Virus record (IMG/VR): IMGVR_UViG_3300007775_000026
Location: 1 to 21,511 of that record
Direction: 5' to 3' (one strand)
Origin: a virus
Length of the DNA: 21,511 nucleotides
Numbering within the stretch: position 1 is the first letter of the stretch; every line of letters begins with the position of its first letter. The translations under genes and the position numbers were made by a program. Below are positions 2,861-16,798 of the stretch, piece after piece. Below the pieces are notes generated by a model, which did no database searches, was not told the DNA's origin, and saw only the letters and a program-made list of their open reading frames with translations.

Positions 2861-4906
2861 ATGGATAATACGCCTGTCACCGAAGAAGAAAAACCACAAT
2901 CAGCCCAATACTGGCATGATGAGCTGCAACGCTATCATAAAGAGTTCAAGACATGGGAAGCGAGAAGTGAGAAGGTCACTAAACGCTATCGCGATGAGCG
3001 TGGCGATGACAGGCTAAAGGGCGAGAAGCGTTACAATATACTGTGGTCTAATGTTCAGACGCTTCATCCGGCAATCTTTTCCAAAGTACCCAAGTCAAAT
3101 GTAACCCGCAGATATTCAGACAACGATCCGGTTGGCCGCACTGCTTCGACCATCCTTGAGCGTTGCCTTGAGTATGAGATTGAGCAGTATGGTGATTATT
3201 ACAACTCAGTGAACCATGCCGTCTTGGACAGGCTATTGTCTGGCCGTGGCGTCTGCTGGATTCGCTATGAGCCTGAGTTTGAGCAGATGGAAGTTCCAGG
3301 TAATGAAGAGCCTAACGAGCTGATGATTACCGAAGATGCGGAATATGAGCCTGAGACGGTTGATGTTATATCCCATGAATGCTCTCCGGTTGATTATGTG
3401 TTCTGGAAAGATTACGCACAAAGCCCAGCCCGTACAGAAGAAGAAGTCACATGGAAAGCACGCAGGGCATATCTGAACGAGGAAGAAGGCGTTGATCGGT
3501 TCGGCAAAGCGTTCAAGCTAGTCCCGAAGAAGAACATCGCCACATCAGAAGAATCCACCGAAGACAACCACATGAAGAAGAAGGCTGCCGTTTGGGAGAT
3601 ATGGAACAAGGCCACAGGTAAGGTCGTATGGGTTGCCGAGGGGCATCCGGAAGTCTTGGACGAAAGGGACGACCCATTACAGTTGGAAGATTTTTTCCCA
3701 TGCCCTAAACCATTGTTTGCCACCATGACGAACGATTGCCTAATCCCGATTCCTGACTATTGCCTATACCAGAACCAAGCCGATGAAATGGACGACCTGT
3801 CAGACAGGATTTACCGCTTACAGGAAGCCATGAAGCTTGTCGGCTGCTATGACGCAGGCGCTCCAGAGCTGGAGAAGATCCTTAAATCTAATGACAACAC
3901 GCTGGTTCCTGTCAAGAACTGGAGTCAGTTTGTAGAAGGTGGCGGATTACAGGGCGGCATCCAGTTCGTTCCGATTGATATGGTTGCCAAGGTATTGATG
4001 GAGCTTTACAAAGCCCGTGAATCGGTCAAGCAGATGATTTACGAGATTACAGGCATATCAGACATCATCCGAGGCGCTTCAATGGCCTCAGAGACAGCCA
4101 CAGCGCAGCAGATCAAGTCTCAGTTCGCATCACTTCGCCTTAATGACATGCGTGAGGACGTAGAGCATTTCTGCCGCGATATTCTCCGTATTAAAGCTGA
4201 GATCATCTGCACCAAGTACCAGCCTGAGACAATCTTGAAGATTTCCGGCATTGAGAACACCAACGACAAGGTATATGCAGAGCAGGCTATCGAGATGCTC
4301 AAGAACGAACCCCTGAGAAACTACCGCATTGAGATTGAGACAGACTCATTGGTCAAGCCAGACCAGACAGCCGAACAGCAGAATCGGGTTATGTTCTTGC
4401 AGACTGCCGGTCAATTCCTGCAAAGTGCCATCCAGGTTGGGCAGATGCAACCCGCAATGGTTCCGTTGCTTGGTGAGATGCTGATGTTCGGAATCAGGGG
4501 ATTCAAGACGGCGCGTCCATTGGAAGCGGCATTTGAGCAGTTCCTTGCAGAGCAGGAGAAAGGCGGCCCGAACGCTCAACAGCAAGCCCAGCAGCAGGAA
4601 ATGCAGGCACGCCAGCAGGCTGAGAAAGAGAAGATGGACATTGAGAAGTTCAATTCCGAAGTCGCAGCATACGCAGCACAGACGGCAAGGATGAAGGCTC
4701 AGATAGAGGCACAGCAACAGGCCAATAGCGACAGCAAGAAGCTGGAGATTGAAGCATATAATGCAGAATCCAACCGCATGAAGGTTGACGCAGAACATGC
4801 CGATATAGCGGCAATGGCAGAAAAGCACGCACATGAATCGTTACAGCGCCATCTGGCCGATATAGAAGGTGCCCTGTTCGCCGAAGATGAAGGCATGGTT
4901 GGTTGA
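2861..4906 (+). CDS. Portal protein, P22-like family (681 aa)
   Basis: The dodecameric ring at the capsid vertex through which DNA enters and leaves. The N-terminal part (about residues 55-130) carries the pattern [21 protein letters not shown] then DPVGRTAS, characteristic of P22-like portals of podoviruses. A mixed alpha/beta core follows. From about residue 550 the chain is Gln-rich and helical, with runs such as AQQQAQQQ and heptad-like helices to the C-terminus. This resembles the long helical 'barrel' that projects into the capsid in P22-type portals. The 681-residue length suits that class. The ribosome site GAGGG precedes the ATG, and a promoter candidate lies upstream. Its stop is one base from the next ATG (TGATATG). 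Confidence 0.88.
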
Positions 4907-4907
4907 T

Positions 4908-5570
4908 ATGGCGGAGATCACCAAACAGGACGCAGTTGATAGAACTCGGCAATGGGCTAGATTGAATGGAATCAATCCATCCCAAGCCACGGAATCACAG
5001 AAGGCTATGATGAAGGCTCACCTATTCCGTGAACACGGAGGCTCAATCGTCGATGCTGTAAGGTCAGATGTTGGAACTATTGGCAAGTTTATGGGGGGGC
5101 AGACAACTCCTTCGCAGGCTGCTGCGCCGCAAATATCAGTAGGCTCGACAGCAATGACTGGCCGCAGCCTCGCGCCTAACGCAATGCCAACCAGCAACAA
5201 TCTCGGAGCAAGCCAACCAGCAGCTGTGGCTGCCCCACTAAAAGCAACGCCGATGATAGGCGTTACATCAGACATTAAGCCAGTAGAAGCAGGAAACATA
5301 GATATATACAACAGGCCCAAAGTAAAAAATAAGGACGGTTCTATTAGCACAGTCAGGTCTTTATCTTTTGGAGATGAGAACGGGTTTGAGATTCTTGTTC
5401 CAACGGTCAGCGACGATGGAAGGATAATGAGCAATAAAGAAGCTATAGAAACATATTACAAGACAGGAAGGCATCTTGGGAAGTTTAAGACTCCCGATGA
5501 AGCAACAAGCTATGCCAAATCTCTACATAATCAGCAAGAGAGATACTATCTTAACGGGCAGACTGAGTAA
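4908..5570 (+). CDS. Two-domain protein with a mobile phage-virion domain (220 aa)
   Basis: I start it at ATG 4908 (TGATATG coupling with the portal stop); in-frame ATGs upstream would overlap the portal gene. Residues 1-60 form a helical charged domain, 62-125 a low-complexity Ala/Ser/Thr/Pro linker, and 129-220 a compact domain with [39 protein letters not shown] and YAKSLHNQQ. That last domain matches, from memory, a domain found attached to many phage virion proteins and usually of unknown role. By hand count GC falls from about 52% in the first part to about 40% over the C-terminal domain, which suggests domain shuffling. A G7 run lies at 5093-5099. A minor virion protein is likely; the exact function is unknown. 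Confidence 0.75.
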
Positions 5571-5583
5571 ACAGGAGTTTTGA

Positions 5584-5850
5584 ATGGATGAATTGACCCC
5601 ACCTTGGAGGCAGGAAGGCTATCAGCAGCAGATGGCTCCACAGCCTTTGCCACAACCTCAGCCACAGCAGCCTAATCCGCAAGTATTCGAGGCTATATCC
5701 GCTTTGATGAACAAGCTTGGCGAGATTACATTCACACAGCAGCAGAATAACGAGATGGCCGCTCAGATTCTCCAGAAGATCAACAAGCCAAAGTCGGTGA
5801 AGGTTGAGCGCGATGATGAAGGCTACGTCAAGAGGATGGTTGAAGAATGA
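5584..5850 (+). CDS. Small Pro/Gln-rich hypothetical protein (88 aa)
   Basis: An 88-residue protein with a good AGGAG ribosome site. Residues 1-33 are disordered and rich in Pro and Gln (QPLPQPQPQQP). Residues 34-67 form one amphipathic helix, and the end (KSVKVERDDEGYVKRMVEE) resembles the short basic/acidic tails of small phage proteins near the portal. It overlaps the next gene by four bases (ATGA). It may be a minor structural or assembly partner of the portal; nothing more specific is visible. Confidence 0.65.
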   Translation: MDELTPPWRQEGYQQQMAPQPLPQPQPQQPNPQVFEAISALMNKLGEITFTQQQNNEMAAQILQKINKPKSVKVERDDEGYVKRMVEE

Positions 5851-7625
5851 CTATTTTAGTAGCTGACAGAGTACAGGAAGCAACAGAGACTTCCGGCACA
5901 GGAACCTATGACCTTGGCGGCACGCTAAACGGCTTCCAGACGTTCGTTGCAGGCATTGGAACGGGAAACCAGTGCTACTACGCCATCACGGATGATATTG
6001 ATTGGGAAGTAGGTTACGGAACTGTTACAGACGCCGCTACTGATACACTGTCAAGGGACGCAATCCTGGCAAGCTCAAATAGTGGCTTGCCAGTCGATTG
6101 GGGTACAGGCCAGAAGTTCATCTGGTGCGATTCACCAGCCGCGATATTCAGCACGTTCGCTGCATTGTCCGGTAGTTCAGCACAGGACTTCGCAACCAAG
6201 GCTTTGTCTGTCACTGGAAATATCACGGTAACAGGCACGGTTGACGGCAGGGACATAGCGGCAGACGGAACTACTCTTGATGGTGCGGTACTAAACGCAG
6301 ACACCTCAACCGCTGCCATGAGCTTTGTCATTGATGAAGACACTATGGCGTCTGATAGCAACACAAAAGTACCTACACAGCAGAGCGTGAAGGCTTATGT
6401 TGATAGCTCAGTATCGGCATCTATATCCGAAATAGCTGAACCTACCGCGCATCTTCCACTTATCCGCACTCTTGATGTCGTAAAGGGAAGCGGTACTGTG
6501 ACATTCGCCAGAGCCGTTGCCTGCTATGGGTGGAACAGGAACACAGGTTTGCTTGATTCGATAGGCTCAGGAACAGAACGCTATAACCGCGACAGTGACG
6601 GGAAATGGAAGCTATTAGTTGAAGAAACAAGCGCCAATGCCGTATCGGCTACAAACTGGCGCACCGCCGCGATGTGGACTGCCGTAGCGAGTGCGACCAT
6701 CACCGCGAACCAGACTGGAATCGACGGCGGCAGCAATAAAGCCTGCACGATTGAAGACACCAGCGCCGCAGCCAACCAGTATGCGCGTAAATCCATCGCT
6801 CATTCTGCCGACACACAGAAAAAACCGTGGAAAGTTTATGTCCTGAAGGGTTCGGCAACCAATACATTCGTAAGGGTGCGTTCATATATCGGAGCAGTGT
6901 ACAAGAACATCCAGTTTAATTGTGATACTGGCGAAGTATCCACTGTAGTTGCAGATACGGGTCTTTATGTATCAAGCAAAGGCGATTGGTGGGAGGTCGG
7001 CGGATACGGCACAGGAAATGGATCAGCCACTACAGGTTATATTGATGTGTTTCCGGCATTCGCATCGACACTGGATTCCACGTCCCAAGATGTAACGGCT
7101 ATGGGGTCAGTTGTTGCTGACTGGCCGCAGTTGGAAGAAATAGACGTTGGTAAGCCGACAAGCCCTATGGCTGGCGGAGGCTCAAGGACAGCGGCAGACG
7201 CGGCATATATCACAAATGCTAATCTCCCGTATCTTCCAGACGGCGGAGCAATAATGTGTACGTCTTCATCGGCTGATGATGGTGCCGCTCATACCTACTT
7301 CTCAGCCATTAGCGGGACAGGCGACACGTACTTACAACGCGGAACTACCGGAGTGCTGGAAGGCAAGCTTGGAGGCGTAGCATTTACGTCCACATATACC
7401 CCTGATGAATCGGCGCACAAGTACACCCTAAAGACTGATGGAACGACGCATCTCGTATATGAGGACGCGACCCAGGTTCACTCTTTCACAGGCGCTCTAA
7501 CTATGCCGACAGGAAACCTGTACATTGGTTCATATAATGGCGCATCCAACTTTGCCAATGCCGGTGTCGGAAACCTGAAGATATTCGATTACGGCCTTTC
7601 CGCTAATGAGATAGCGACAGCATAA
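5847..7625 (+). CDS. Fibre or appendage protein with C-terminal lectin-like domain (592 aa)
   Basis: A beta-rich, modular, probably trimeric adhesin. Residues 1-105 (starting ILVADRVQEAT, with IDWEVGYGT and DTLSRDAILASSNSG) are a module often found at the N-terminus of phage fibres. Residues 120-190 hold collar-like repeats seen in tail fibres (GNITVTGTVDGRDIAADG; DEDTMASDSNTKVPTQQSVK). Residues 205-430 resemble the 'TFxRA...LLxEExxxN' beta-sandwich module common in phage adhesins. About 440-592 look like a LamG/concanavalin-A-type fold, ending in NLKIFDYGLSANEIA. It lies between portal and scaffold genes, not beside the tail-fibre gene, so a head or neck fibre is possible. Confidence 0.72.
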   Translation: MTILVADRVQEATETSGTGTYDLGGTLNGFQTFVAGIGTGNQCYYAITDDIDWEVGYGTVTDAATDTLSRDAILASSNSGLPVDWGTGQKFIWCDSPAAIFSTFAALSGSSAQDFATKALSVTGNITVTGTVDGRDIAADGTTLDGAVLNADTSTAAMSFVIDEDTMASDSNTKVPTQQSVKAYVDSSVSASISEIAEPTAHLPLIRTLDVVKGSGTVTFARAVACYGWNRNTGLLDSIGSGTERYNRDSDGKWKLLVEETSANAVSATNWRTAAMWTAVASATITANQTGIDGGSNKACTIEDTSAAANQYARKSIAHSADTQKKPWKVYVLKGSATNTFVRVRSYIGAVYKNIQFNCDTGEVSTVVADTGLYVSSKGDWWEVGGYGTGNGSATTGYIDVFPAFASTLDSTSQDVTAMGSVVADWPQLEEIDVGKPTSPMAGGGSRTAADAAYITNANLPYLPDGGAIMCTSSSADDGAAHTYFSAISGTGDTYLQRGTTGVLEGKLGGVAFTSTYTPDESAHKYTLKTDGTTHLVYEDATQVHSFTGALTMPTGNLYIGSYNGASNFANAGVGNLKIFDYGLSANEIATA

Positions 7626-9485: not shown

Positions 9486-9504
9486 CCTATAAAGGAGATT
9501 GCAA

Positions 9505-10500
9505 ATGGCATTCGCTAATACGTCTATTAGTGATATTATCGCGACTACTATTCAATCCCGAAGCAAGATGCTGGCTGATAACTTCACCAACAACAACCCG
9601 CTCCTGTTTCAGATGAATAAGTCCGGCAATATCAAGCCTTTCTCCGGGGGTAATGTTATCCTCGAAGAAATCGCTTACAATGACTCAAGCACTACCAATG
9701 CTGCAAGTTACTCCGGTTACGATACACTGGATATTACTCCGAACTCGCCTATTTCGGCAGCTCAGTTTAATATCAAGCAGTACGCAGCCGCAGTTACTAT
9801 CAGCGGATTGGAACAGCTTGAGAACGCAGGAAAAGAGAAGATGATTGACCTCTTAGAGGGTCGCATCGCAGTGGCAGAAGGCGAGTTGAAGAACAAGCTT
9901 GACACTGATCTTTATTCTGACGGAACCGGCAACGGCTCCAAGCAGCTTACAGGCCTTGCAGCCGCAGTTGCTTCCACCCCAACGTCAGGAACTTATGGCG
10001 GCATCAACCGCGCCACATGGTCATTCTGGCAGAACGTGTCTTATGACGCTACGACTGATGGCGGCGCTGCCGCTACTGCTTCAAACATCCAGAAGTATAT
10101 GGATGCTGTGGCTATTCAGTTGGTTCGCGGCAAAGACCGTCCTAACCTGATTGTTGCAGATGCCAATTACTACAGCCTCTACTTGCAGAGCTTGCAGGCC
10201 ATTCAGCGTGTTACGTCTGAAACTATGGCCGGTGCTGGCTTCACCTCACTGAAATATTTCGGTGTTGGTGGCAATGCAGACGTTGTACTTGGCGACGGTG
10301 TAGGCGGAAATCAGACCGCCAATACCATGTATTTCCTTAACACCAACTACCTGAAACTTCGCCCACATCGGAACCGCAACTTTGTTCCTATTGGTGGCGA
10401 CCGTCAGGCAGTCAACCAAGACGCTACTGTTAAGCTGATCGGCTGGGCTGGTAATTTGACCTGCTCCGCTCCTCGCTTGCAGGGTGTGTTGAAGGATTAA
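9505..10500 (+). CDS. Major capsid protein (331 aa)
   Basis: The shell-forming coat protein, probably with the HK97 fold. The start is ATG 9505, seven bases after AAAGGAG; a TTG two codons upstream is in frame but overlaps the spacing. It shows a coat-family pattern I know from podovirus-type phages: SISDIIATTIQSRS near the N-terminus, KPFSGGN (44-50), YSGYDTLDI (69-77), AAQFNIKQYAAAVTISGLEQLEN (85-107), LYSDGTGNGSKQ and GINRATWSFWQN. All eleven Arg codons are CGN; AGA/AGG, common in neighbouring genes, are absent, as expected for a very highly expressed gene. It is followed by the decoration-type gene. Confidence 0.92.
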   Translation: MAFANTSISDIIATTIQSRSKMLADNFTNNNPLLFQMNKSGNIKPFSGGNVILEEIAYNDSSTTNAASYSGYDTLDITPNSPISAAQFNIKQYAAAVTISGLEQLENAGKEKMIDLLEGRIAVAEGELKNKLDTDLYSDGTGNGSKQLTGLAAAVASTPTSGTYGGINRATWSFWQNVSYDATTDGGAAATASNIQKYMDAVAIQLVRGKDRPNLIVADANYYSLYLQSLQAIQRVTSETMAGAGFTSLKYFGVGGNADVVLGDGVGGNQTANTMYFLNTNYLKLRPHRNRNFVPIGGDRQAVNQDATVKLIGWAGNLTCSAPRLQGVLKD

Positions 10501-10512
10501 GGGGGTTATATC

Positions 10513-11010
10513 ATGGCATTTAAGATCACTGACCAACTCATTGGGGCGCAGGCAATCGCGTCCACATCCACCACTCAGAACCATCCTATTGGCACTATTG
10601 TTCGTGCCAAGGACGCAACATTGGGCGAAGGCGAGTTTATTTATCTGCTCGGCGTCGCATCCACTGCTGTTGGTTCTCTTGTCACCTTTAACTCCACGAC
10701 CGGCCAGACCACGCTTGCCGCTGTAGGTACTAATCACCCGCAGCCTATTGCAGTGGCTATGAGTGCTAACGTGGCTTCACAGTATGGCTGGTATCAGATT
10801 AGTGGCGTTGCTACTGCTCTGAAATCGTCCGCAGTATCCTTGGCAGCTGGTGTTGCCGTAGGCGTGCTGACTGTTGGCCGTGTTGCTGCTACTGGCTCCG
10901 GTAAGGAAATCCAGGGCGCTATTCTGGCCGCTGTTGCTTCGGCATCGGCATCCACGTTGACCGCTTCACTGGTGATTAACAGGCCCACTTTGCAGGGTCG
11001 CATAACTTAA
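10513..11010 (+). CDS. Head decoration-type structural protein (165 aa)
   Basis: A Gly/Ala/Ser/Thr-rich beta protein of 165 residues just after the coat gene, with a strong AAGGGGG ribosome site. The pattern GTIVRAKDATLGEGEFIYL (about 27-45), VGSLVTFN and AVAMSANVASQYGWYQISG (about 79-98), ending in a strand-rich tail, belongs to a phage family regularly found beside such coat proteins and thought to decorate or cement the shell. Direct proof of a decoration role is not in the sequence. A strong intrinsic terminator begins twelve bases after its stop, making it the last gene of the high-expression capsid block. Confidence 0.75.
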   Translation: MAFKITDQLIGAQAIASTSTTQNHPIGTIVRAKDATLGEGEFIYLLGVASTAVGSLVTFNSTTGQTTLAAVGTNHPQPIAVAMSANVASQYGWYQISGVATALKSSAVSLAAGVAVGVLTVGRVAATGSGKEIQGAILAAVASASASTLTASLVINRPTLQGRIT

Positions 11011-11021
11011 ACGCAAAAGAT

Positions 11022-11052
11022 GGAGGCTGGCTTCGGCTGGCCTCCTATTTTT
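11022..11052 (+). terminator. Intrinsic terminator after the capsid block
   Basis: A ten-pair stem (GGAGGCTGGC with GCTGGCCTCC, two G-T pairs) is closed by a C(TTCG)G tetraloop and followed by TATTTTT (11046-11052). This is a textbook Rho-independent terminator. It separates the abundant capsid proteins from low-copy enzymes and tail parts. Since no promoter is evident after it, downstream genes probably depend on readthrough. Confidence 0.85.
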
Positions 11053-11057
11053 GGAGG
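11041..11057 (+). promoter_or_regulatory. Possible ribosome-site-sequestering alternative hairpin
   Basis: The 3' arm of the terminator, CCTCC (11041-11045), is exactly complementary to the GGAGG ribosome site (11053-11057) of the next gene, with a seven-base loop. This hairpin and the terminator cannot form together. A ribosome finishing the decoration gene (stop 11008-11010) would cover part of the 5' arm and could favour the second structure. The pairing is seen; the switch is inference. Confidence 0.4.
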
Positions 11058-11061
11058 ATTA

Positions 11062-12411
11062 ATGTTCCACTCACAAATCAGGCATAAAAACGCGGCTGCA
11101 TCGGCAGATCTGATTATTCCGCTAAATATCACATGCAACACCCCGGACGAGGTTCTTTTTGCAAACATCGAAGCAAACTCACGCTTGCCAAAGGAATGGG
11201 TAAAGGTAGAGGAGGCACATGACACGCCTGCCATTATGGTTGGCGGTGGTGCTTCTGTAATTGACTACATAGCAGAGATCAAGGAAAGGCAGGACAAGGG
11301 AGCCAAGATATTCTCAATGAATGGCACTGCGTCATTTCTTGCTGATGCTGGAATCTTTGCCGATTATCAGGTAATTGTTGATGCGAGGGAAGAAACGCAG
11401 AATCTTATCGGGCCAGCCTTTGAGTATTTGTTCGCATCTCAGGTGCATCCATCACTGTTCGAGGAAGAGCCAGACGCTCGGCTATGGCATTTGGAGTGCG
11501 GAGGTATAGAAGACCATTTCCCCGAGTATGAAGATGCCTATGCGCTTGTCCTAAGCTCTGCATCGGTAGGTAATTGCGCCCTATCTCTGGCGTATTGCCT
11601 TGGGTACAGGGATTTCCACATTTATGGCTATGATTCGTCTTTCAAGGATGATAAATCACACGCTTATTTCCAAGCAATGAACGTCGGTGAACCGTCCTGC
11701 ATGATGAACTACGGCGGCACTGAATATAAGGTGTCTTTAGCCATGAAGTGTCAGGCCGAGAAGTTTCCGCAGATTGCCAACTTGCTCAAGGCCAATGGAT
11801 GCACTGTCGAAGTGTATGGCGAAGGGCTATTGCAGGACATGTATCGTGGACTGAACTCAGGCGAATTGACCGAGAAAGACAAATACACCGCAATGTGGAA
11901 TTACGACGAATACAGGGGATGCGCTCCTGGAGAGTTTTGCGCTGATAAGTTCCTTGAAGTGGTGAAGCCGGACAGCTCAATCATCGACTTCGGCTGCGGA
12001 ACTGGAAGGGGTGCGCTTGCCATCCACAACGCTGGCCACGATGTTCTTTGCATCGACTTTGCATCGAACTGCCGTGATGAGGCCGCTGAGATTCTGCCGT
12101 TCATCGAATGGGATTTGACTCAGGTTATCCCCATTGGCGCTAAATATGGATATTGCACCGATGTTATGGAGCATATTCCGCCCGAAGATGTTGAGAAGGT
12201 TATCACGAACATAATGAACTCTGTTACAGAGGCGTTCTTTCAGATAAGCCTTGTCGATGACGTATGCGGAACCTTGATCGGGCATCCGTTGCATTTGTCT
12301 GTTCACCCATACTCATGGTGGATGGAGTTGTTCCCACAGATGGGCTATGCTATCATGTGGAGCGAGGATTGTGGCGCAACAGCCATGTTCCATATAAGGA
12401 GAAAAGGATGA
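11062..12411 (+). CDS. MptE-like (DUF115) and SAM-methyltransferase fusion (449 aa)
   Basis: I start it at ATG 11062, five bases after GGAGG; an in-frame ATG at 11020 lies before the terminator stem and has no ribosome site. Residues 55-262 resemble the MptE-like/DUF115 Rossmann domain: MVGGGASV (59-66), NGTASFLADAGI, YQVIVDAR (102-109) and GNCALSLAYCLGYRDFHIYGYD (170-191). Residues 268-449 are a class I SAM-dependent methyltransferase with motif I IIDFGCGTGRG (307-317), acidic D332 after strand 2, DVMEHIPPED (367-376) and a HPLHLSVHPYSWW ending found in phage methyltransferases. Substrate unknown: protein, sugar or small molecule. The next gene overlaps it by four bases. The fold calls are firm for the second half, moderate for the first. 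Confidence 0.8.
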   Translation: MFHSQIRHKNAAASADLIIPLNITCNTPDEVLFANIEANSRLPKEWVKVEEAHDTPAIMVGGGASVIDYIAEIKERQDKGAKIFSMNGTASFLADAGIFADYQVIVDAREETQNLIGPAFEYLFASQVHPSLFEEEPDARLWHLECGGIEDHFPEYEDAYALVLSSASVGNCALSLAYCLGYRDFHIYGYDSSFKDDKSHAYFQAMNVGEPSCMMNYGGTEYKVSLAMKCQAEKFPQIANLLKANGCTVEVYGEGLLQDMYRGLNSGELTEKDKYTAMWNYDEYRGCAPGEFCADKFLEVVKPDSSIIDFGCGTGRGALAIHNAGHDVLCIDFASNCRDEAAEILPFIEWDLTQVIPIGAKYGYCTDVMEHIPPEDVEKVITNIMNSVTEAFFQISLVDDVCGTLIGHPLHLSVHPYSWWMELFPQMGYAIMWSEDCGATAMFHIRRKG

Positions 12412-12950
12412 GCGATAACACTGTATATGTAGGGGAAAACAACGGCGGATATGCACTGAACAACGTAATGTTTTACGAGGATGAGATTCGCGATAATTTC
12501 AAATCGGAAAAACAGGGAAAGGAAGTTTTCATTACCAAGGAGATGATTGAGATTCGTACCCCTGGTGACACCAATAACGTGATTGTGCGCATTGCCACTG
12601 AACACGACAAGCAGGTATATGCGAATCAGTACATGGCTTACAAGGTGCAGCACGGGCAGGAGGTTGACGGCACGCCAATCGACGAAATGACCGATCTTGA
12701 TGCTCAGGCCAGAACCGCACTGAAACAGATCGGGTTTATAACTGTCGAGCAGCTGGCCAATGCTTCCGATGGCATTCTACAGCGGCACATGGGCGGCATG
12801 CGCTTTCGCAGGATGGCAGTTGATTTCCTCAAGAATCAAGGAACTGCTGCACAGGACGAGCAGGAAAAGCGAATCGCAGAGCTGGAAGAAAAGCTTGCTC
12901 AGCTTATAGCGCAACCGAAGCCACGCGGCAGGAAACCCAAGGAGGCTTAA
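12408..12950 (+). CDS. Conserved-type phage protein with C-terminal coiled coil (180 aa)
   Basis: The start is ATG 12408 (ATGA overlap, preceded by AAGGAG). The layout fits a small family found before head-tail adaptor genes: a beta N-terminus with EMIEIRTPGDTNNVIVR (about 45-61), a middle resembling 'F..Q(W/Y)..YK.G...GTP(I/L).E' (QYMAYKVQHGQEVDGTP, 74-90), a helix-hairpin-like ALKQIGFITVEQLANASD (104-121), then a coiled coil (EKRIAELEEKLAQLIAQ, 153-169) and a basic tail. Function is unknown; it may be a neck or minor head component. The family recognition is from memory. Confidence 0.72.
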   Translation: MSDNTVYVGENNGGYALNNVMFYEDEIRDNFKSEKQGKEVFITKEMIEIRTPGDTNNVIVRIATEHDKQVYANQYMAYKVQHGQEVDGTPIDEMTDLDAQARTALKQIGFITVEQLANASDGILQRHMGGMRFRRMAVDFLKNQGTAAQDEQEKRIAELEEKLAQLIAQPKPRGRKPKEA

Positions 12951-13856
12951 ATGTCAAATACGATGCTCCAGAATGTAGTGGAGGTTTGCCAAGAACTAGG
13001 GCTGAGTACGCCCAATGCGGTGGCGTCATCCTCTGACCAATTACTTGTCCAGATTATGGCTTTAATGAATCGGACAGGTGTTGAGTTGATGAAAGGATAC
13101 CCGTGGCAGGCACTTCAACTGGAGCATCGTTTCTATACCACGGTTGTTAGTGATACAGGAGACACGACAAGCGGCTCTGCTGTGGTTACGAACATTACCG
13201 ACACAAGCTCGCTTTCAACCAACTTCATGGTAAGCGGTACGGGAATACCGGATGATACGTTTATCTTGTCGGTTGATTCTGCCACTCAGGTAACGCTAAG
13301 CGCACAGGCATCGGCAGCCGGTACTGGAACGGCGCTGACGTTCACTCAGGTGCTTTATACGCTTCCTAGTGACTTTGACCGAATCGAGAGCGGAACTGAA
13401 TGGGACAAGTCATCGTCATGGCAGCTATTGGGCCCGAACGACCCGAAAGAATGGCAATATCAGAAGTCAGGATATATCTCAAGCGGGCCTAGAGTCCGTT
13501 TCCGCTTGCAGGGTGACAGGTTTTCCGTATTCCCAGCGCCTTCTACAGGATTGAGATACGGCTTTGAATATGTGTCTCAGAACTGGTGTACTGATTCGTC
13601 AGGAACCGGTCAGGCTAAGTTTGCCGCTGATACCGACCTGTCACTTATTCCAGATGAGTTATTAGTTTTAGGAACAAAGGCGAAGTTCAACCTTGCCAAG
13701 GGCTTCGATGCAACATCGACTATTATGGAGTACAAGACAGCGGTTAGAAACGCGCAGGCGAACGATAAAGGATCTGCTGACATTAACCTTGGCAGAAGCA
13801 AGGCGAAGTTCCTGATTGACTCAACCAATCTTCCTGATACCGGCTATGGCGCATGA
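12951..13856 (+). CDS. Head-to-tail adaptor protein with inserted beta domain (301 aa)
   Basis: It begins directly after the previous stop with AAGGAGG. Residues 1-60 are helical with a conserved-looking GVELMKGYPWQALQLEHRF. The chain resumes at about 135 with YTLPSDFDRIESGTEWD, a hallmark of podovirus adaptor or tail-tubular-A-like neck proteins that bind under the portal. It ends with a helical part (IPDELLVLGTKAKFNLAKG). Between them, about residues 66-132, sits a Thr/Ser/Gly-rich beta module (SGSAVVTNITDTSSL, FMVSGTGIPDDTFILSVD), of an Ig-like insertion type known in this family. The role is to join the portal to the tail hub. The next gene overlaps it by four bases. Confidence 0.75.
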   Translation: MSNTMLQNVVEVCQELGLSTPNAVASSSDQLLVQIMALMNRTGVELMKGYPWQALQLEHRFYTTVVSDTGDTTSGSAVVTNITDTSSLSTNFMVSGTGIPDDTFILSVDSATQVTLSAQASAAGTGTALTFTQVLYTLPSDFDRIESGTEWDKSSSWQLLGPNDPKEWQYQKSGYISSGPRVRFRLQGDRFSVFPAPSTGLRYGFEYVSQNWCTDSSGTGQAKFAADTDLSLIPDELLVLGTKAKFNLAKGFDATSTIMEYKTAVRNAQANDKGSADINLGRSKAKFLIDSTNLPDTGYGA

Positions 13857-15385
13857 GCGGTGTAGTTTCTGTAACGGCTCCGGTTGGAGGGCTTAACGCC
13901 AGAGATTCACTGGCGGAGATGAAGCCAACGGATGCGGTTATTCTGGATAACTGGTTTTGCCGCCCTGATAATGTCATAAGCAGAAAGGGCTATACTTCTC
14001 ATGTGACCGGCATTACCGGCGACGTTCAGACGCTTATGGACTACGATTCCCCAACCGGAACAGAGGCTCTGTGGGCTGTGGCAGACAATGGCGGAGCATG
14101 CTCGATTTATGATGTAACGACAGCAGGATCGGTTGGTGCGGCTGCTGTAACGGGACTAACAAGCGCACAATACAGGTATGTGAACTTCTCCAACTCTGGA
14201 GGGTCTTATGCGTATTATGTGAACGGTGCAGACGACCCTCTATTGTATGATGGTTCGACATTCACGGCTATTAACGGCGCATCATCTCCGGCAATTACCG
14301 GCGTTACCACGGCCAACCTTATAGACGTTGCAGTACACATGCGCAGGCTTTGGTTCGTCGAGAAAGACACCATGCTTGGCTGGTATCTTGCCGCTGACGC
14401 TATTTCCGGCGCTGCCACATCGTTCGATTTTGGCCCCCTATTCCGCTTGGGCGGTTCAATCCAAGCTATTACTTCATGGACTGTTGACGCAGGAATTGGC
14501 ATGGACGACCACTTTGTCGTGATGACAACCAACGGCGAGGTTGCCATTTACAAGGGAACTGACGTATCAAGTTCAACCACATGGGCGCTGGTTGGCGTTT
14601 ATCATGCAGGCCGACCTATTGGCAGGAATTGCTTTACAGAGGTTGGTGGCGATGTTGCTGTAGTTACAGAGGATGGAGTAATTCCACTAACTAAGCTTCT
14701 TATTTCCGGCAGGGTAGCGAACGCAGTCGCATTGACGGACAAGATCCGCGACAAGATCACCACTGATTCGGCAAGTTATTTTTCTAACTATGGCTGGAGC
14801 GCAACGCTATTTCCCGCTCAGAGCATGTTGATAGTGAACGTGCCTACTTCATCAACCACTTCTGTTCAGTACGCCATGAACACAATCAGCGGTGCATGGT
14901 CAAGGTTTACTGGACTCAACGCAAGATCATGGCATGTTGTGAATGGAAAGATATATTTCTCAGTATCAGGCGGCACAATCTACCAATTCTGGAATGGAAC
15001 AAATGACAACGGTAGCGAAATCACATGCGAGTGCTTAACTGCATTTAACAAGTTCGGTAGAGAGTCACAGTCCAAATTCATTAAGATGGCTCGCATCATC
15101 TTGGGGTACGATTCAGCGGTAGCATTGCAAGCAACTGTCAATGTTGACTTCGATCAGTCCGCGCCAGTTGGAAGCCCTACATTCGTGACGGTGACTACTG
15201 CCCTTTGGGATACGGCTAAATGGGACACTGACGTATGGGCTGGAAACGTTACCGTAAACAGGGATTGGCGAGGTCTATCCGGCATAGGATATTGGGCTTC
15301 TATTCACTTCAAGGCCATATCAGATGTTTCCAATATCGAGTTTTATGCAGTTGACTATCTCATGGATAAGGGCGGAGTTTTGTGA
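13853..15385 (+). CDS. P22 gp10-like tail hub / DNA-stabilisation protein (510 aa)
   Basis: A 510-residue, nearly all-beta protein. The N-terminus (TAPVGGLNARDSLAEMKPTDAVILDNWFCRP, then VISRKGY) matches phage hub proteins of the P22 gp10 type, which form a beta-propeller that closes the tail after packaging. Repeated Trp/Gly strands (ALWAVADNGG, HMRRLWFVEKD, HFVVMTTNGEVAIYKG, MNTISGAWSRF) fit propeller blades. It follows the adaptor gene with an ATGA overlap and no good ribosome site, so translation is coupled. The call rests on N-terminal pattern, fold type, length and gene order. Confidence 0.75.
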   Translation: MSGVVSVTAPVGGLNARDSLAEMKPTDAVILDNWFCRPDNVISRKGYTSHVTGITGDVQTLMDYDSPTGTEALWAVADNGGACSIYDVTTAGSVGAAAVTGLTSAQYRYVNFSNSGGSYAYYVNGADDPLLYDGSTFTAINGASSPAITGVTTANLIDVAVHMRRLWFVEKDTMLGWYLAADAISGAATSFDFGPLFRLGGSIQAITSWTVDAGIGMDDHFVVMTTNGEVAIYKGTDVSSSTTWALVGVYHAGRPIGRNCFTEVGGDVAVVTEDGVIPLTKLLISGRVANAVALTDKIRDKITTDSASYFSNYGWSATLFPAQSMLIVNVPTSSTTSVQYAMNTISGAWSRFTGLNARSWHVVNGKIYFSVSGGTIYQFWNGTNDNGSEITCECLTAFNKFGRESQSKFIKMARIILGYDSAVALQATVNVDFDQSAPVGSPTFVTVTTALWDTAKWDTDVWAGNVTVNRDWRGLSGIGYWASIHFKAISDVSNIEFYAVDYLMDKGGVL

Positions 15386-15813
15386 TTTCCTACACATCAG
15401 ACTATTCCGAGGTTGCGCCTTGGGTATGTGCAAGGGCTGGAGGAGAACCTGGAGTAGGAACCGGAATAGGAATGAAAAAAGATGGGGAAATGGTTGGTGG
15501 TGTGCTATATGACAACTTCAATGGAGCGTCAATTATGGCGCACATCGCACTAGATCATCCGGTAACTAAAAGACTCCTGTTTTTGATGTTTGATTACCCC
15601 TTTACACAGCTAAACGTAAATGCTATTATCATCGCAATATCTTCGGCGAATACTGCGGCAAACAGATTCGCTTCTAAATTAGGCTTCAAGCTTCAGGCGA
15701 CCTTGAAGAAATCAGCCCCCGATGGCGACTTGATTTTATATCAAATGCTTCGGGAAAATTGCAGATTTCTGGAGGTTCCCCATGGGAAAGCCATCGGCCC
15801 CGCCACCACCTGA
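15382..15813 (+). CDS. Phage GNAT-family N-acetyltransferase (143 aa, GTG start)
   Basis: It starts at GTG in a GTGA overlap with the hub gene. The sequence follows a phage-specific GNAT subfamily: GIGMKKDGEMVGGVLYDNFNGASIMAHIA (29-55), a catalytic-core helix LLFLMFDYPFTQLNVN (65-80), then SSANTAANRFASKLGFK (87-103), SAPDGDL (111-117) and YQMLREN. The classical acetyl-CoA loop (Q/RxxGxG/A) is not obvious, which is usual in this subgroup. It would move an acetyl group from acetyl-CoA to an amine; the target is unknown. GC is about 44% by hand count. The 3' end overlaps the next gene by 32 bases. Confidence 0.8.
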   Translation: MISYTSDYSEVAPWVCARAGGEPGVGTGIGMKKDGEMVGGVLYDNFNGASIMAHIALDHPVTKRLLFLMFDYPFTQLNVNAIIIAISSANTAANRFASKLGFKLQATLKKSAPDGDLILYQMLRENCRFLEVPHGKAIGPATT

Positions 15814-16798
15814 TTACGCAGGAGCGGCACAAGCAACAGCAGCAGGAAACCTAGACGCAGCACGCGCTACAGCGGCAGCCAATAGAGTAAATCAGATAAC
15901 CCCTCAAGGCACGTTAAATTATGACGTAACTGGCAAAGACCCTTTCGGCAATCCGACATGGACTGCCACGCAGACACTTGCGCCAGATCAGCAGAAACTA
16001 TTAGACCAGCAGACAGGATTGAGTCAGGGGCTATTAGGCACTGCTCAGACCGGCCTTGATTATGCTAACAAGACTCTAGCAAGTCCTGGTGTGGATATGT
16101 CCTCGCTGCCGCAGATGCCAATTAACGCGGGGCAGACGTATCAGGATGCAATGATGCAGCAGTTGAATCCTCAGATTGACCGACAGCAGCAGATGCTTGA
16201 TACGAAGTTAGCCAATCAGGGCATCACCCAAGGTTCAGAGGCGTGGAAGAACGCGCAGGATGATGCCGCAAGGTCTAGGAATAACCTGCTTGCTCAGGCT
16301 ACAACTCAGGGTATGGGTATGGGCTTGAATGCTCAGAATCAGGCGTTTACGCAGGCCGGATATAATCAGAACCTTCCAATCAACATCATCAATGCTTTGC
16401 GCTCTGGTACTCAGGTTGGAACTCCTAATTACGTGAATCCAGCGCAGCAAGCGCAAACAGCTGGCCCTGACCTATTGGGAGCCGCTAATGCCAATTATCA
16501 AGGCCAGATGCAGGGATATAACGCACAGCAGGCAGGAATGGGCAACATGATGAACGGGCTGTTTGGCCTTGGCTCTGCTGCAATAATGTCCGACCGCAGG
16601 CTCAAGAAGAATATCAAGCGTGTAGGAACACATATCCTTGGATTCGGCATTTACACATATGACTACATTTGGGGCGAGAAAGGCAAGGGCGTAATGGCTG
16701 ATGAGGTCAAACCTGTCGTTCCAGAAGCCGTTGTGAGGCATCCAAGCGGGTTCGACATGGTGAATTACAATATGATCGGAGGCGCATATGCCATATGA
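15782..16798 (+). CDS. Putative virion protein with compact S74-like self-cleaving C-terminus (338 aa)
   Basis: It has a GGAGG ribosome site six bases before the ATG. Residues 1-260 are Gln/Ala/Asn-rich and helical, beginning GKPSAPPPPDYAGAA, a start often seen in podovirus internal or neck proteins. Residues 269-338 carry MSDRRLKKNI...GFGIYTYDYIWG...GKGVMADEV, the signature of the Peptidase S74 (endosialidase-type intramolecular chaperone) family. The Ser-Lys dyad spacing SDRRLK (S270, K275) is intact, so autocleavage near A268-S270 is possible. The domain is short, about 70 residues. It is probably an internal or neck protein; the role is inferred from position before two more such genes. 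The next gene overlaps it by 11 bases. Confidence 0.7.
   Translation: MGKPSAPPPPDYAGAAQATAAGNLDAARATAAANRVNQITPQGTLNYDVTGKDPFGNPTWTATQTLAPDQQKLLDQQTGLSQGLLGTAQTGLDYANKTLASPGVDMSSLPQMPINAGQTYQDAMMQQLNPQIDRQQQMLDTKLANQGITQGSEAWKNAQDDAARSRNNLLAQATTQGMGMGLNAQNQAFTQAGYNQNLPINIINALRSGTQVGTPNYVNPAQQAQTAGPDLLGAANANYQGQMQGYNAQQAGMGNMMNGLFGLGSAAIMSDRRLKKNIKRVGTHILGFGIYTYDYIWGEKGKGVMADEVKPVVPEAVVRHPSGFDMVNYNMIGGAYAI

Follow-up and report, generated by a model that had tools for sequence, protein, structure and literature searches.

The gene at positions 11062–12411 of the window (the whole stretch of DNA analysed, a 21.5-kb viral contig, IMG/VR record IMGVR_UViG_3300007775_000026) encodes a DUF115 domain fused to a methyltransferase, and we lean towards reading it as a virion-glycosylation enzyme which travels, as a mobile cassette, alongside a particular type of head decoration protein: a sugar would be put on the decoration protein and then methylated. 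The fusion is inherited with the decoration protein across many different capsids, which points to phages that cover their particles with a methylated sugar. The fusion and its surroundings in the structural operon are as follows.

9499–10500, plus strand: major head protein of SU10/Mx8 type (phrog_9953, E 1.7e-105; SU10_MCP); backbone marker, uncoupled from the enzyme
10513–11010, plus strand: head decoration/virion protein (phrog_29386 virion structural protein); proposed acceptor or partner
11022–11045, plus strand: terminator-like hairpin (UUCG loop, T tract; 10 pairs, 7 GC), between the decoration gene and the fusion
11053–11057, plus strand: GGAGG ribosome-binding site of the fusion, read from the sequence
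11062–12411, plus strand: DUF115–methyltransferase fusion, 449 aa (DUF115 domain best read as Maf-like glycosyltransferase type, plus class I SAM methyltransferase)
12408–12950, plus strand: structural-operon gene after the fusion (phrog_20268), its ATG overlapping the fusion stop
12951–13856, plus strand: SU10-type adaptor/neck protein (PF24175, E 1.4e-7); second backbone marker

The preliminary description had placed a DUF115–methyltransferase fusion inside the structural operon, and the open frame, the Pfam matches and the neighbouring genes bear out its coordinates, its fused nature and its placement. Pfam and PHROGs matches identify TerL, portal, a scaffold-like protein, the SU10-type major head protein and the decoration/virion protein 5' of the fusion. 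The ATG at 11062, with GGAGG upstream, is likely the start codon; the frame itself is open from 11020. At 12408 the start codon of the following structural-operon gene shares bases with the fusion stop (ATGA), so that translation of the fusion and of 12408–12950 is probably coupled. The hairpin at 11022–11045 lies directly 3' of the decoration gene, as if the capsid and decoration genes were expressed above those downstream. The major head protein is 48.5% identical to the Mx8 major virion protein and the decoration protein 52–55% identical, over 98 residues, to the Mx8/Mx9 virion protein; its Mx8 homologue is the major virion structural protein of Myxococcus phage Mx8.

Pfam assigns the first half of the fusion to the MptE-like family PF01973 (DUF115; E 4e-16; 59.7 bits, cut-off 34.6) and the second to Methyltransf_25 (E 1.8e-6; 29 bits, cut-off 27). 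The domains and motifs are:

11062–11850, plus strand: DUF115/PF01973 domain with N-terminal strands, residues 1–263 (Pfam core 11212–11649)
11242–11256, plus strand: nucleotide-site motif GGGAS, residues 61–65 (GGGPS in most relatives; S65 invariant in both domain orders)
11863–12408, plus strand: SAM methyltransferase domain, residues 268–449 (Pfam; Z 17–19 to many class I methyltransferases)
11992–12012, plus strand: SAM motif I GCGTGRG, residues 311–317 (kept in relatives)
12154–12174, plus strand: signature CTDVMEH, residues 365–371 (invariant in both domain orders)

The methyltransferase half has the features of a class I SAM enzyme, namely a Rossmann-type fold, G-x-G-x-G within GCGTGRG (311–317) and the acidic D332 after strand 2. 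Residues invariant in relatives of the DUF115–methyltransferase order include G311-x-G313-x-G315, D332-F333, D351, YGYCTDVMEH (362–371) and LHL (410–412); loss of SAM-binding residues in relatives had been named as grounds for abandoning the assignment, and GCGTGRG, D332 and CTDVMEH are all retained. In the DUF115 half, S65, N87, D107, G181, G189, D191, S192, H200, Q204 and G255 are invariant across both domain orders. A PADLOC match to the anti-phage defence protein mad2 was rejected, since it is limited to the 46-residue SAM motif (E 7e-5) and does not extend to the whole protein.

An IMG/VR scan, by similarity sampling and not exhaustive, gathered 123 fusion relatives in viral contigs, 80 of which were kept (L001–L080). 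With 123 relatives, over 40 of which share its domain order and synteny, and with invariant residues at the SAM and DUF115 sites, the fusion is real far beyond chance. Relatives L001–L046 and L073 have the order DUF115–methyltransferase and lie between the decoration protein and the adaptor wherever flanks are present. The others (L047–L080 except L073) have the reversed order, in phages that have hardly any structural genes in common with the window; between the two orders, the methyltransferase is 47–50% and DUF115 about 30% identical. The two domains thus occur joined in no fewer than two fused arrangements. Reversed fusions too lie in structural modules, and 27 of 28 such loci have a phrog_644 protein no more than 900 bases downstream, mostly within 50 bases. 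In L051, phrog_644 proteins flank the fusion (3697–4125 and 5566–6024), and homologues follow minor tail genes in many mycobacteriophages, e.g. Estave1 gp21 and Courthouse gp39. Two reversed fusions among those sampled with Pfam carry long N-terminal extensions (L047:7413–9386 and L059:3370–5313), that of L059 being a dual-specificity phosphatase domain (E 2.6e-10), which gives phosphatase–methyltransferase–DUF115. A split version lies 3' of the major head gene in MW202621, as a methyltransferase gene followed by a DUF115-like gene (weak Pfam match, E 0.002), and Roseobacter phage CRP-9 has a lone methyltransferase 3' of its coat gene. An extra lone DUF115 gene stands immediately 3' of the DUF115–methyltransferase fusion at L110:4875–5702 and L124:4927–5694. 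No full-length fusion was found in 50,697 published phage records. A cellular origin was considered and rejected: 84,980 species genomes yielded a single full-length match, on a Rhodobacteraceae MAG contig (L082) that may itself be viral.

Scanning with the decoration protein retrieved 80 loci, of which 43 have the fusion after the decoration gene, 21 another DUF115 protein and 16 no DUF115 (3 of these end at a contig edge). The other DUF115 proteins of this slot carry Methyltransf_24 (7/17), FkbM (4/17) and a phrog_1962 glycosyltransferase domain (15/17; E down to 2e-35). The phrog_1962 domain has DLDTLI and HGxPRPH motifs, its profile matches Skp1 galactosyltransferase (E 1.1e-5) and glycogenin, and by these sequence matches we class it as GT8-like. 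One slot enzyme (L175) has an added GT2 domain, and in another (L189) the glycosyltransferase domain is C-terminal to DUF115. N87, D107, G181, G189, D191, S192 and the His of the fusion also occur in other enzymes of the slot. DUF115 is therefore the constant member, with glycosyltransferase and methyltransferase parts exchanged around it, the pattern to be expected of an enzyme that builds glycans. The methyltransferase half has an ordinary class I fold whose matches give no substrate information; clues to a sugar O-methyltransferase role come from partners only, i.e. the GT8, GT2 and FkbM domains of sister enzymes. The preliminary description had found the fusion unexpected between decoration and neck genes: the position was right, but the slot recurrently holds DUF115 enzymes and the fusion is no oddity there. 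In relatives lacking DUF115, HNH-like endonuclease genes lie 3' of the head gene (L184:5918–6496, L190:1686–2141 and L237:5894–6379), another mobile element of the same slot.

Presence of DUF115 is coupled to the decoration-protein lineage. In a sample selected by capsid, DUF115 occurs in 4/4 loci with this decoration protein and in 0/69 informative loci without it, and most of the loci lacking DUF115 have only about 260–500 bases between the head gene and the next gene. Added scans with decoration proteins of DUF115-lacking phages brought the comparison to 99 loci without and 105 with DUF115, some contigs being counted more than once; in 25 records of DUF115-lacking relatives, no PF01973 was found anywhere. 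The DUF115 label changes 20 times over a capsid tree with 116 rows. The strongly supported branches of this tree provide 15 independent pairs; decoration type (K104) and DUF115 switch together in an average of 14.7 of them, and never in opposite directions (p 6e-5). With one set of 69 phages used for all three trees, the number of DUF115 changes is 2 on the decoration tree, 12 on the capsid tree and 16 on the adaptor tree, within the limits of similarity-based sampling and quick trees. By these figures (2/12/16 changes; p 6e-5), a putative phage-coded glycosyltransferase is genetically tied to a virion protein.

An unlikely, if credible, alternative is that the enzyme is a late-operon moron modifying the host cell surface (an LPS or capsule sugar), for example excluding superinfecting phages. 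Phage glycosyltransferases often act so, phrog_1962 is classed under moron/host takeover in PHROGs, and DUF115 domains are known in bacterial surface and flagellar glycan systems. However, presence of DUF115 tracks the decoration protein and not the backbone, the translational overlap with a structural gene puts expression of the fusion late, and reversed fusions likewise adjoin a small structural-module protein. It had earlier been left open whether the sugar is put on the virion or on the host surface; the recurrence of DUF115 enzymes in the post-decoration slot makes the decoration protein the more likely target and the host surface the less likely one.

Residue K104 of the decoration protein would be a candidate acceptor. 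All 82 distinct decoration sequences paired with DUF115 have it, against 1 of the 67 that lack such a partner (the exception, L161, ends at a contig edge), but decorations with DUF115 form nearly one clade (2 changes on the decoration tree), so that the association is a single phylogenetic contrast, and we take this sequence pattern as a lead and not as proof. Contrasts at T/S63, S/T129 and T/S150 are weaker than at K104, and most Ser/Thr are not uniquely conserved in the decorations of this slot. Myxococcus phage Mx8, a podophage with the same order of major head, decoration and neck genes, differs in having no DUF115 anywhere and no K104 in its decoration protein. As the decoration protein is only inferred to be the acceptor, we also weighed a rather unlikely reading in which another virion component (major head protein, neck or fibre) is modified, or in which the methyltransferase acts directly on protein with DUF115 a mere binding module. 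The higher conservation of the methyltransferase across domain orders (47–50% vs about 30%) and the lone or split genes directly 3' of the major head gene would fit it. Yet what stays constant in the slot is DUF115, whereas the methyltransferase is in some enzymes replaced and in others missing, K104 persists in decorations paired with DUF115-only variants, and the capsid lineage is uncoupled from DUF115.

Adjacency by itself favours co-transfer, and physical linkage of the neighbouring decoration and enzyme genes may account for part of the coupling. It is not the whole story, since the capsid gene, just 12 bp from the decoration gene, is uncoupled. That the gene is neutral or selfish cargo, moving with its neighbour by recombination into a permissive slot with no functional link, thus appears improbable: many relatives do lack DUF115, but the capsid gene is no farther from the decoration gene than the enzyme gene is and yet is not coupled to it (2 vs 12 changes), the architecture has been repeatedly rebuilt with DUF115 retained, and the active-site-like residues are invariant.

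AlphaFold2 models were computed for the whole protein (with 39 relatives, pLDDT 89.7) and, because methyltransferases filled the whole-protein Foldseek list, for the DUF115 domain alone (with 55 relatives, pLDDT 93.5). Maf (5mu5) is the top fold match of the predicted domain (Z 20.9 over 219 residues at 3.4 Å, VIA-align) and ranks first in Foldseek (E 2.9e-8). Next in the VIA-align ranking is MptE of M. jannaschii (Z 14.5), followed by Cst-II (10.9), the sialyltransferases of mammals (about 9.5) and then thiamine pyrophosphokinase (8.6). The DUF115 profile run against PDB sequences ranks them alike, with Maf at E 1.1e-12, MptE at 0.003 and Cst-II at 0.6, the last near noise. The pfam01973 domain of Maf is reported to be similar to Cst-II, and a Clostridium Maf to accept CMP-Neu5Ac and Kdo (PMC11339370). 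Taking the fold ranking, the profile match, this reported likeness and the Clostridium donors together, the modelled DUF115 half is best read as a Maf-like glycosyltransferase. A match of residues 55–262 to an unrelated fold family had been named as a possible refutation; instead, residues 28–263 match the PF01973 fold of Maf.

The domain is Maf-like but not a Maf, because the N-terminal Rossmann-like and C-terminal helical domains are missing: the three-domain architecture is absent, and beyond PF01973 the 449-aa fusion has only its methyltransferase. With the Maf/PseD flagellin nonulosonic-acid glycosyltransferases (pfam01973; 5mu5) it shares the central fold, the GxGPS motif, an aligned G-x-D and His/Gln region, and a gene adjoining that of a proposed polymeric acceptor; it differs in its full SAM methyltransferase and in a neighbour that is a phage decoration protein, not flagellin. 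The GT42/GT29 sialyltransferases (Cst-II, ST8SiaIII) are alike in fold (Z 9–11), with a GxGPSL motif in Cst-II, but lack a methyltransferase, and their sequence match is weak (Cst-II, E 0.6). Archaeal MptE, a 6-hydroxymethylpterin diphosphokinase (8sd5), has the same PF01973 family (59.7 vs 34.6 bits) and overall fold (Z 14.5). Its DLDGD and VHAHGDN segments, of which we take DLD and HAHGDN to be MptE motifs, are absent from the phage protein, where VDARE and ASQVHPS align with them, and no pterin gene context was seen around the fusion. The pterin option raised in the preliminary description, taken here as a pterin diphosphokinase with a methyltransferase producing a methylated pterin or other small molecule, is therefore very improbable despite the Pfam family name and the MptE-like fold, and we rejected it on the fold ranking (Maf ahead by 6 Z units, and E 1.1e-12 vs 0.003), on the missing MptE segments (DLD and HAHGDN replaced by DAR and ASQVHP) and on slot partners that are glycosyltransferases. 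Its suggestion of a sugar made or attached and then methylated agrees with fold, domain partners and neighbourhood. Phage ‘MptE-like pterin kinases’ like the fusion are probably glycosyltransferases, and their annotation would need correcting.

For the fusion as a virion-glycosylation enzyme, we infer catalytic activity, acceptor, donor, step order and benefit as follows. The DUF115 half would act like the Maf catalytic domain, moving a sugar from a host-made activated donor, by analogy with Maf most likely a CMP-nonulosonic acid or CMP-Kdo, to the decoration protein encoded just upstream; the fused methyltransferase would then methylate the attached sugar, and the benefit would be a masked or altered particle surface. 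A host-made donor is proposed since the sampled phages lack donor genes: 20 records with DUF115, many of which may be incomplete, yielded neither NeuB nor a CMP-sugar synthetase (CTP_transf_3), and a phage-made donor was set aside on this basis. More tentatively, and with somewhat less than even confidence, we envisage a widespread modular cassette whose Maf-like transferase would begin the glycan on the decoration protein. The GT8/GT2 and methyltransferase domains fused to it, swapped freely and even placed in reverse order, would lengthen and cap that glycan. The cassette would move from one capsid backbone to another together with its decoration protein and so provide phages with exchangeable methylated sugar coats.

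Phage-particle glycosylation is known from few isolates. In PMC11256854, which cites Freeman et al. 2023, phage-coded virion glycosylation is reported for mycobacteriophages Che8, Rita and relatives, whose glycosyltransferases are likewise predicted to glycosylate virion proteins; those genes lie near the genome 3' end and the protein modified is the major capsid protein, whereas the window phage has a single fused gene in the head operon, following the decoration protein. Our literature search found no paper linking DUF115 or MptE-like proteins to phages. If the reading as a virion-glycosylation enzyme is true, decoration protein and DUF115 enzyme would form a recognisable, widespread gene pair predicting environmental phages with modified coats and offering a testable acceptor, and the compact glycosyltransferase–methyltransferase fusion may be of use in protein glycoengineering.

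Elsewhere in the window, a protein encoded at 5847–7625, between the portal and scaffold genes and distant from the tail genes, has a C-terminal concanavalin/laminin-G-like domain and tail-fibre matches. The virion protein at 15782–16798 has, in its C-terminal part, matches to distal subunits of tail fibres and to a chaperone region of Peptidase_S74 type. A GNAT/acyl-CoA acyltransferase gene (15382–15813, phrog_4470) lies amid the neck-region genes, and at the same place in most related phages, including those of Stenotrophomonas, Bradyrhizobium and Rhizobium; it possibly encodes a second virion-modifying enzyme.
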